From assembly GCF_018623055.1 (NCBI RefSeq), contig NZ_CP076019.1, positions 1,984,001 to 2,048,000 of the forward strand: 64,000 bases of DNA, in the 5' to 3' direction. Position 1 is the stretch's first letter. Each line of letters begins with the position of its first letter. The translations under genes were made by a program, and so were the position numbers. This document shows positions 21,785 through 63,295 of the stretch, in pieces. Source of the DNA: Halorubrum sp. 2020YC2 (GTDB taxonomy: Archaea > Halobacteriota > Halobacteria > Halobacteriales > Haloferacaceae). Under the pieces are notes generated by a model that was given only the letters and a program-made list of their open reading frames with translations, did no database searches and was not told the origin of the DNA.

Positions 21785-22073
21785 GCCGGTGCGGTGGCGC
21801 GTGCCGGTGAGCGCCGCGCCGCGGCGCGAACCGCACGCGCGAGGGAGTCGCTGGCGGCGGCAGCCGCCAGCGACGAGGCTGGGGAGGCGTGGGGTGCCGT
21901 GCGGCTGCGGGCGGGCGGGACTCAAAGGGGCAGTTGCGAGGACGCAGTAGGCGTTCACGAGAGCATAGCTCTCGTGAGCCAATCAGAACGCTACGCGTTC
22001 TGATGACGATGTAAGCACCGCAGCGAGCAACGCGAGCGAGGAGCGCAACGAGCGTACTGCGTCCTCGCGACTG
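21785..22073 (-). ncRNA. Structured element core, locus A (candidate structured RNA)
   Basis: About 289 nt, read on the minus strand. The outer stem P1 pairs 22055-22073 with 21931-21949 (18 of 19 positions). Inside it are perfect hairpins at 21983-22003 (TCAGAACGC/GCGTTCTGA) and 21956-21976 (CACGAGAGC/GCTCTCGTG). The 20-nt linker CTGCCCCTTTGAGTCCCGCC follows (complement of 21914-21933), then a hairpin GTCGCTGGCGGC/GCCGCCAGCGAC at 21847-21874, then a GCGCGTGC...GCACGCGCC closing stem. The same plan with different stem sequences occurs at three other loci. No protein frame is conserved among copies. Transcription is not shown, so RNA is an inference from compensatory changes. Confidence 0.5.
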
Positions 22074-22349
22074 GGGCTTTGGAGGTCTTTGCCGCCGATC
22101 CACAGTCAGTTGTTTATAAGCGAGCGGCTGGGGCTTTGGAAGTCTTTGCCGCCGATCCACAGTCAGTTGTTTATAAGCGAGCGGCTGGGGCTTTGGAGGT
22201 CTTCGCCGCCGATCCACAGTCAGTTGTTTATAAGCGAGCGGCTGGGGCTTTGGAGGTCTTCGCCGCCGATCCACAGTCAGTTGTTTATAAGCGAGCGGCT
22301 GGGGCTTTGGAAGTCTTCGCCGCCGGTCTACCGTCAGGATCGGATAACT
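22071..22349 (-). repeat. 57-bp tandem repeat array, locus A
   Basis: Four full 57-bp units (starting at 22071, 22128, 22185 and 22242) and a partial fifth (from 22299) that diverges after about 40 nt. Read on the minus strand each unit runs CCGCTCGCTTATAAAC, then a spacer with GGATCGGCGG, then CCTCCAAAGCCCCAG. Units differ by only a few bases. Each holds a TATA-like box, so the array looks like serial promoters leading into the structured core. Because 57 is divisible by three the array is open in several frames, but no start or family supports a protein. Confidence 0.9.
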
Positions 22350-33239: not shown

Positions 33240-33318
33240 CGCTGCGAACACAGCCAAAGCTCCAGCTGTTCGTTATAAATAACAAACCACCGCTCAACGG
33301 TGAACACCGCCAAAGCCC
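33240..33318 (+). repeat. Repeat units of locus B (degenerate plus one good unit)
   Basis: Two units about 56 bp apart: one degenerate (ccaaagctccagctgttcg) and one complete with TATA box cgttataaataac at 33271-33283, a spacer CAACGGTGAACACCG and CCAAAGCCCCAG at 33310-33321. The spacing and motifs match the 57-bp units at loci A, C and D. The unit leads directly into the structured core. Confidence 0.7.
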
Positions 33319-33640
33319 CAGCCGCGAGGACTCGCGAGGACTCGCGCGGCTCGCTGCGCTCCTCACCCGGTCGCTCACTCCGTTCGCTCTCTCGTTGCGG
33401 TGCTTGCGTCGCCGTGCTTCGTCCTCACGGCTGCCCCTTTGAGTCCCGCCCAACTCCGCACAGCACCTCACGCCTCCCCAGCCTCGTCGGCGGTCCTCCG
33501 CTTCGCTCCGGACCGCCGACTCCCTCGCGCGTGCTGTCGCCGGCGCGAAGCGCCGGCTTCCAGAGGGACCTTCGGTCCCTCGCGGCTCGGCCGCAAGGCG
33601 GCCTCACAGGCACGCGCCGCCGCCTCGCTCGTTTATAAAT
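33319..33640 (+). ncRNA. Structured element core, locus B (candidate structured RNA)
   Basis: About 320 nt. P1 pairs 33319-33331 (CAGCCGCGAGGAC) with 33421-33433 (GTCCTCACGGCTG), one mismatch. The linker CTGCCCCTTTGAGTCCCGCC is identical to the other copies. Hairpin 33486-33520 is GTCGGCGGTCC/GGACCGCCGAC. Further hairpins are GCCGGCGC/GCGCCGGC and GAGGGACC/GGTCCCTC. The 3' end is GGCACGCGCCGCCGC followed by gtttataaat. It lies between tRNA-Gly with its att-like repeat and the phosphate permease. Expression not shown. Confidence 0.5.
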
Positions 33641-51169: not shown

Positions 51170-51341
51170 CCAGCCGCTCGTTTATAAATAATCGACTGTG
51201 GATCGGCGGGAAACGCCTCCAAAGCCCCAGCCGCTCGCTTATAAATTGGTGTCAGTAGATCGGCGGAGAACGCCTCCAAAGCCCCAGCCGCTCGCTTATA
51301 AATTGGTGTCAGTAGATCGGCGGAGAACGCCTCCAAAGCCC
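51170..51341 (+). repeat. 57-bp tandem repeat units, locus C
   Basis: Three units with CCAG marks at 51227, 51284 and 51341, spaced exactly 57 bp. Each has a TATA box (ttataaat at 51182, 51239, 51296 approximately), a spacer GATCGGCGG, then CCTCCAAAGCCCCAGCCG. The second and third units are nearly identical; the first differs in its spacer (ATCGACTGTG, as at locus A). The array faces the structured core on the same strand. Confidence 0.88.
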
Positions 51342-51594
51342 CAGCCGCGAGGGCTCGGTGCGCTCGCTGCGCGCCTCGGTCGCTCACTCCGTTCGCTCCC
51401 TCGGTGCTTACGTCGCGCGCCTTCGCCCTCGCGGCTGCCCCTTTGAGTCCCGCCCCGCACAGCACCGCAGCCTCACACCTCCCCAACCTCGTCAGCCGGC
51501 CTCCGCTTCGCTCCGGCCGGCTGACTCCCTCGCGCGTGCTGCTCGGCCGCGGGGCGGCCTCGCAGGCACGCGCCGCCGCGCTCCATTTATAAAT
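51342..51594 (+). ncRNA. Structured element core, locus C (candidate structured RNA)
   Basis: The shortest copy, about 253 nt. P1 pairs 51342-51354 (CAGCCGCGAGGGC) perfectly with 51425-51437 (GCCCTCGCGGCTG). Within its loop CGGTGCT (51402-51408) can pair with AGCACCG (51461-51467), a pseudoknot. The common linker is at 51435-51454. Hairpin 51491-51525 is GTCAGCCGGCC/GGCCGGCTGAC with loop TCCGCTTCGCTCC. The last stem CGCGCGTGC pairs with GCACGCGC around a short hairpin, and the element ends GCCGCCGCGCTCC-atttataaat. No conserved protein frame. Confidence 0.5.
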
Positions 51595-62754: not shown

Positions 62755-63177
62755 CTTATAAACGGCGATGCGGTGGCGCGTGCCGACGAGCGGCCGGAGG
62801 CCGCGAGTCGCACGCGCGAGGTCGCCGGCGCGTAGCGCCGGCTGCCAGAGAATCTTCGATTCTCGCTGGAGTCAGCCGGCCGGAGCGAAGCGGAGGCCGG
62901 CTGACGAGGTTGGGGAGGCGTGAGGCTGCGGTGCCGTGCGGGGCGGGACTCAAAGGGGCAGTCGCGAGGCGGGCGCAGGCGTTCACGAGAGCGGAGCTCT
63001 CGTGAGCCAATCAGAACGCGAAGCGTTCTGATGACGACGTAAGCACCGCAACGAGGGAGCGAACGAAGAGAGCGACCGAGTGAGGAGCGTGGTTCGAGAC
63101 GCCTTCGGCGTCTCGTCATCACGAAAGGCGCGAAGCGCCTTTCGAACGACAGCGAGCGTGCGCCCGCCTCGCGACTG
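62755..63177 (-). ncRNA. Structured element core, locus D (candidate structured RNA)
   Basis: The longest copy, about 423 nt, read on the minus strand. P1 is a perfect 19-bp stem (63159-63177 with 62959-62977). Inside are hairpins GAACGC/GCGTTC at about 63007-63031, CACGAGAGC/GCTCTCGTG, a long AAAGGCGC/GCGCCTTT hairpin, and GAGACGCC/GGCGTCTC. The linker CTGCCCCTTTGAGTCCCGCC (complement of 62942-62961) is unchanged. Hairpin 62871-62905 is GTCAGCCGGCC/GGCCGGCTGAC, followed by GAGAATC/GATTCTC and GCCGGCGC/GCGCCGGC. Ends with ggcacgcgccaccgc and a TTTATAA. Confidence 0.5.
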
Positions 63178-63295
63178 GGGCTTTGAAGATGTTCGTCGTC
63201 GATCAGCTATCGTCTATTTATAAGCAAGCGACTGGGGCTTTGGCGGTGTTCACCGTCGAGCAGCGGTCGACTGATTTTAAATACTCGTCGAGAGA
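63175..63295 (-). repeat. 57-bp tandem repeat units, locus D
   Basis: Two units starting at 63175 and 63232 (exactly 57 bp apart), the second continuing to about 63285 with a different spacer. On the minus strand each reads TTATAAAT-type box, spacer with GATCGACGA or TCGACGGTG, and CAAAGCCCCAGTCG. The second unit's box is TTTAAAAT and is a weaker TATA. Faces the core on the minus strand. Confidence 0.85.

Follow-up and report, generated by a model that had tools for sequence, protein, structure and literature searches.

The repeated hairpins in this DNA are best read as parts of a gene-less, non-autonomous dispersed element whose RNA would be conserved as a fold, an interpretation to which we give a little better than an even chance on the sequence comparisons set out below. 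An earlier note made from the 64,000-nt stretch under study (the window) had drawn attention to four loci, here copies A to D; these are real, but they are only a sample of a genome family of about 150 copies. At an estimated 250 to 400 nt per copy the family occupies roughly 1 to 2 % of the genome, and it would constitute a large, order-wide and apparently uncatalogued RNA family in archaea, from which few RNA classes are known.

Copies in the window and in the genome

The conserved core CTGCCCCTTTGAGTCCCGCC occurs four times in the window against an expectation of 0.00. In the 3.06-Mb chromosome it was found at 141 sites when up to two mismatches were allowed and at 152 with up to three, and its reversed control had 0 genome matches. 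Among the matches listed for the exact 17-mer in public genomes, all were from Halorubrum save one from an uncultured archaeon. The set of copies used for comparison was assembled by taking 1.5 to 2.5 kb around most genome copies and adding public records, giving 281 distinct copies of which 141 were from the genome that contains the window. The arms that the earlier note had quoted for the central hairpin, here named P2, were all found in the sequence, being GTCAGCCGGCC/GGCCGGCTGAC in copies C (51491-51525) and D, GTCGGCGGTCC/GGACCGCCGAC in copy B and GTCGCTGGCGGC/GCCGCCAGCGAC in copy A; the sequence also agreed with its P1 arm pairs at the four loci (GAGGGC/GCCCTC in C and GAGGAC/GTCCTC in B). 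The features of the four copies are listed in Table 1.

Table 1. Features of the four copies, in window coordinates
Feature	Position	Strand	Basis
Copy A	~21847-22337	+	Window span
Copy A P2 hairpin	21847..21874	+	Sequence
Copy A RNA core, hairpins inserted in P1	21874..22095	+	110.6 bits
Copy A 57-nt tandem array of 3'-end modules	22067..22337	+	TRF, 4.8 copies
Copy B	33273-33640	-	Window span
Copy B RNA core	33297..33486	-	144.6 bits
Copy B P2 hairpin	33486..33520	-	Sequence
Copy C	51170-51579	-	Window span
Copy C 57-nt tandem array, RNA 3'-end module (GCGGCTGGGGCTTTGGAGG...ATTTATAAG)	51170..51348	-	TRF period 57, 3.1 copies
Copy C RNA core, G-rich strand, full-length R1 match	51320..51491	-	cmsearch 160.1 bits, E 7.7e-32
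Copy C P1 long hairpin: outer AAAG/CUUU pairs; inner 2-bp steps split by tandem G.A	51335..51445	-	Covariation; outer pairs compensated between genera
Copy C conserved core GGCGGGACTCAAAGGGGCAG, G-runs, possible G-quadruplex	51435..51454	-	141 to 152 genome sites; G-run columns at least 97 % conserved
Copy C purine-rich conserved segment CGAGGTTGGGGAGGTGTGAGG, between P2 and linker	51471..51491	-	Consensus and invariant columns
Copy C P2 hairpin (GTCAGCCGGCC/GGCCGGCTGAC)	51491..51525	-	Sequence; P2.3-P2.7 covariation; strand asymmetry absent
Copy C P3 5'-terminal hairpin, arms GCGCGTGC/GCACGCGC	51532..51573	-	Arms kept in 102 copies of the same genome; C strand A.C > G.T
Copy D	62820-63284	+	Window span
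Copy D P2 hairpin, identical to copy C	62871..62905	+	Sequence
Copy D RNA core, hairpins inserted in P1	62905..63199	+	91.2 bits

Anatomy of the element

Read on its C-rich strand, the element starts with one or more modules containing TTATAAAT and GATCGGCGG-GAACACCTCCAAAGCCCCAG, continues with P1 (CAGYCGCGAGG.../...CCTCGCGRCTG, with inner hairpins), and is completed by CTGCCCCTTTGAGTCCCNCCC, a linker, CCTCACRCCTCCCCAGCCTCG, P2, CTCCCTCGCGCGTGC, P3 and GGCACGCGCCACCGC. Comparison of the copies shows that a predicted RNA of the G-rich strand, of about 250 nt, would have the order GCGGUGGCGCG-P3-CGCGAGGGA-P2-purine-rich segment-linker in its 5' part and GGGNGGGACUSAAAGGGGC-P1 long hairpin-GGGGCUUUS... 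in its 3' part. When RNAalifold was applied to 29 G-strand copies, 44 pairs were returned, 24 of which had changed on both sides. Within inner P1, two Watson-Crick pairs alternate with 2x2 steps, mostly GA/GA, that are probably tandem sheared G·A pairs, and the non-canonical modules found here (tandem G.A, GAA/GA and YAA/GCA) are kept across the order. The G-runs GGGNGGG...GGGG...GGGG, which reach 97 % conservation or more in Halorubrum and are for the most part retained in other genera, could possibly form a G-quadruplex adjoining P1.

Some copies hold extra near-perfect hairpins within P1, P2 or P3. These cassettes lie at similar points of the three stems in many copies (in the window at 62975-63150 and 21950-22030), as though small palindromes were themselves mobile. 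In one copy (L106, 4878-5048) the inner part of P1 seems to run in the opposite orientation to that of the other copies in the alignment, which suggests recombination between the P1 arms.

Covariation in the proposed helices

Covariation was assessed against a null model in which the substitutions of each branch of a FastTree tree were evolved afresh at randomly drawn columns, with column rate as the weight. The procedure takes up the idea of R-scape in our own re-implementation and is not R-scape itself; paralogous copies swap sequence by gene conversion, which breaks a strict tree model and makes the tree null approximate. The main test covered 202 distinct copies, aligned on anchors, and 14,706 column pairs, of which four reached E<0.05. 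Three of these were P1 pairs, and the long P1 stem gave the strongest covariation signal of all pairs tested. A second test, focused on P2, used the 101 copies whose better-pairing P2 register was GTC...GAC, picked by position and register with no pairing threshold. Here P2 covaried at five of the eight pairs tested under the phylogeny-preserving null, with two-set E values of about 0.003 or less for P2.3-P2.7, P2.4 being significant also when all 9,591 pairs were considered. P1 or P2 accounted for 11 of the 12 best-scoring pairs. The earlier note had read the compensatory changes as selection on structure, as opposed to covariation no greater than phylogeny would produce; with the tree-preserving null, covariation in the proposed helices went beyond the phylogenetic expectation, and this result for P1 and P2, along with the order-wide compensatory changes described below, upholds that reading.

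Strand of the folded molecule

Single-stranded stems tolerate G·U pairs, and a G·U pair shows as A·C when the opposite strand is read. On the C-rich strand of the copies from the window's own genome, pair 3 of P1 was CG in 74, TA in 35, CA in 26 and TG in 0. Tree events in P1, P1o and P3, likewise read on the C-rich strand, led to A·C in 113 cases against 39 to G·T (p=1.5e-9), and unpaired columns were near symmetric (314 changes from G to A, 287 from C to T). Across the order, the P1 domain on the G-rich strand contained 32 G·U as against 5 A·C. Because of the A·C excess in P1 and P3 on the C-rich strand, with unpaired columns symmetric, we take the folded molecule to be the G-rich strand. 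The compensatory hairpin of the earlier note is thus confirmed as regards its covariation and corrected as regards its strand, the folded strand being the reverse complement of the one that was read. Predicted fold energies, -148 kcal/mol for the G strand and -126 kcal/mol for the other (z of -4.4 and -4.6), were not decisive.

The asymmetry emerged after P1 and P3 had been anchored, a naive local-hairpin scan having given 7 against 7, and it is absent from the wobble events of P2 (38 against 31), so that wobbles gather on one strand in P1, P3 and the order-wide P1 domain and not in P2. In isolation P2 could be a DNA palindrome. Although it covaries, its lack of strand asymmetry means that P2 does not by itself identify an RNA; it is P1, P3 and the P1 domain as seen across the order that make the case for RNA.

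These observations bear directly on the suggestion that the stems are DNA-level palindromes, that is, double- or single-stranded hairpins such as REP/IS200-like substrates, cruciforms or recombination sites, in which changes in the two arms are coupled by templated correction. Such an origin would fit the nearly perfect pairing and strand symmetry (7:7; 38:31) of P2 and the inserted hairpins, the seemingly inverted P1 interior of L106, the exchange of entire stems between orthologous sites and the inverted head-to-head pairs of other genera. However, neither double-stranded DNA nor templated correction can produce the wobble asymmetry of P1 and P3, and the order-wide conservation of the non-canonical modules of inner P1 also tells against palindromes; we consider this explanation unlikely, yet deserving of real weight. 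Its most serious form is a single-stranded DNA hairpin of the G-rich strand, which would show the same wobble asymmetry.

Distribution in Halobacteriales

A covariance model of 172 positions, R1, was built from 29 Halorubrum G-strand copies. It matched 51 of the 52 genomes of the genus and, in the order Halobacteriales, 207 of 293 genomes representing 68 of 87 genera, the other 86 genomes being without a match. When a phylum sample of 197 genomes was searched, 25 had an R1 match, all within Halobacteriales, and none of the matches listed lay outside the order. Copies from other genera scored up to 111 bits, with up to 97 matches per genome, and most of those listed were full length. Thirty-one copies from other genera were aligned with R1, which biases the alignment towards the model, but the eye can follow the P1 columns without ambiguity. 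In these copies a standard pair is retained in 98.4 % of paired cells, against 72.8 % in shuffles and 34 to 45 % with a slid partner; cells changed on both sides numbered 254 against 71.5, and 27 of 35 pairs showed double compensation. In Halorubrum the outer stem is almost always CAAAG/CUUUG; most other genera have GAAAG/CUUUC instead, and some GGAAG/CUUCC, which amounts to an independent compensatory change. The P1 domain is thus seen by comparison to be conserved as a predicted fold across Halobacteriales. It is the conserved part of the element, and P2 is a peripheral, lineage-specific hairpin.

Within one genus, some species have 0 or 1 copy and others at least 53. Four Halorubrum genomes (G026, G035, G042 and G049, of which G035 is 79 % complete) have 0 to 4 detectable copies, most of their congeners having about 50 or more.

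Strong maintenance of the structure over the order, together with the many sites common to several species, would also be expected if the copies were simply an amplified family of host RNA genes that work in trans, for example in association with the ribosome or another RNP, and if mobility were secondary or ancient. The GGGGAGG and GAGGUG segments (window 51471-51491) may be taken in the same sense, as they are similar to the complement of the 3' end of haloarchaeal 16S rRNA, a likeness that may be due to chance in a purine-rich strand. Nevertheless, both the range of copy numbers within one genus and the number of genomes of the order without a match would be unusual for an RNA that the host needs, and we think a host RNA family distinctly improbable.

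Genomic context and dispersal

Gene context was determined for 117 parsed copies with our own codon-usage gene caller: convergent genes flank 48 of them, co-directional genes 53 and divergent genes 15. This enrichment of convergent and depletion of divergent sites is what a cis-acting 3'-UTR or terminator-like intergenic element (BIME-like) would give, but avoidance of promoters explains it equally well, and a gene on the same strand upstream of the RNA, which should then be near-universal, was present for only 71 of the 117 copies, so that we attach little credence to a role in cis.

In 56 species-pair comparisons of flanking DNA, a set biased towards presence, the element in most pairs occupies one common site in one orientation, but no fewer than five sites lack it in the other species. 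High copy number and empty orthologous sites together show that the element is dispersed, but many copies share their site across Halorubrum species, so that movement may not be recent. At shared orthologous sites P1, P2 and P3 are often entirely different, which points to exchange between copies. An all-against-all comparison of flanking ORFs, for loci of the window's own genome and for whole-genome loci, revealed no recurrent neighbour gene or transposase. The family is present on haloarchaeal plasmids; the exact core was in no viral contig and no phage record was similar. On four Natrialbaceae plasmids (L313-L316) the RNA and a gene for a 294-aa OB-fold (Ssb-like) protein are in divergent orientation, about 450-600 nt apart. 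As a common neighbour of the element this gene was rejected: the plasmid loci of Halobaculum and Halorussus lack it, and it probably belongs to a shared plasmid backbone.

Head-to-head pairs of copies separated by a short gap were seen, often in other genera (L308, L288, L282, L291, L293 and L285), and the 3' ends of several match, in the manner of a compact composite element. Among the loci examined in other genera, inverted ends or partners were confined to some, and no general terminal inverted repeat was found. No target-site duplication was found among the species compared, which are too diverged for duplications to be read.

Copying by target-primed reverse transcription, as in LINE/SINE-like retroelements, might account for the tandem duplications of the 3'-end module adjoining full copies. 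On this mechanism 5' truncation should be frequent, but 5'-truncated copies are few, the end-motif counts (152 cores against 158 matches to the 5'-end motif, a short motif with a large chance background at two mismatches) show no such excess, and nearly all listed 3'-end motifs lie in full copies; we therefore rejected a retroelement as very improbable. A guide (omega) RNA of TnpB/IS605-type transposons, suggested by the high copy number of a structured RNA whose fixed 3' end borders on flanking DNA and by 15 TnpB matches in the host genome, is scarcely credible, as a search of all 15 TnpB loci with R1 and the core motifs found neighbouring copies only, R1 overlapping the 3' end of 0 of the 15 genes and the three strong matches being element copies some 0.5 to 1.3 kb away, near the number expected by chance.

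Relation to known systems

A search of Rfam 15 gave no match at or above the gathering score, and no clear weaker one, over any of the four window elements, nor any over their relatives at E values up to 0.5, and the family was not found in the open-access literature by topic or by its conserved letters; a description in a subscription journal is possible. Conserved intergenic RNAs of Halobacteria have been reported from a halite metatranscriptome, the main text of which does not name the family (PMC7002113). As far as we have seen, a dispersed structured repeat is a known kind of element, and what appears to be undescribed is the present family, together with its high copy number and its occurrence across an archaeal order.

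Like the HEARO/OMEGA RNAs of IscB and TnpB, it would be a multi-copy structured RNA tied to dispersed elements with its fold kept across distant hosts; unlike them, it has no Rfam match, no TnpB gene attached and no position at TnpB 3' ends. With REP/BIME, ERIC and other bacterial intergenic palindromic repeats it has in common some 100 to 150 intergenic palindromic copies that avoid genes. However, the haloarchaeal element is a multi-domain, multi-helix fold of about 250 nt, and not the short palindrome of 20-40 nt that defines REP/BIME, with order-wide compensation and a wobble asymmetry like that of single-stranded RNA. Orphan structured RNAs from comparative genomics (e.g. PMC2864571) have also been found by covariation and have no function assigned, but the present family is absent from Rfam 15 and has unusually many copies per genome.

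The MITEs and PATEs of haloarchaea, such as those of Haloquadratum, are gene-less, dispersed and polymorphic between species. The family described here shares these traits, having no protein-coding capacity, a dispersed distribution and presence/absence polymorphism; it differs in its conserved predicted RNA fold, and no general terminal inverted repeat or target duplication was found among the loci compared.

Proposed role of the RNA

Our working model for the gene-less element with a conserved RNA fold takes its fold and strand from comparison of the copies; we further infer that a MITE-like element without genes would spread or convert among intergenic sites and would do so through its transcript. 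The element would be transcribed, the RNA would fold into P1 and the G-rich core, a protein of the host or of a transposon would bind the folded RNA in trans, and the bound RNA would be needed for copying or conversion. We propose that the fold may be kept because a trans-acting factor must recognise the RNA. More tentatively, and with considerable doubt, the family may represent a new kind of archaeal mobile element that depends on an RNA in which a long G.A-rich stem adjoins a four-tract G-rich core (possibly a G-quadruplex). Conserved across Halobacteriales, it would be moved, in up to about 150 copies per genome, by a protein that would recognise the fold. If the RNA does keep the element spreading, this would point to a new RNA-protein mobility or RNP system. 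R1 provides an annotation tool for the family, and the differences in copy number between species make a partner protein searchable by co-occurrence.

Boxes and repeats at the ends of the element

TATA-like CTTATAAAT boxes point inwards at both ends of the Halorubrum copies at fixed distances (13-15 nt / 38 nt) and, where measured, are far above background. They were considered as promoters, but their spacing gives no clean start for a G-strand RNA and no promoter is claimed. The 3'-end module (in the sense of the G strand) is often repeated in tandem with a 57-nt period, and the two window arrays (51170-51348 and 22067-22337) are built of such modules, each with a TTATAA box. Up to six identical units occur at other genome sites (e.g. 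genome 524400-524705), and 3'-end arrays of a similar kind are found in other genera (L282, L285).
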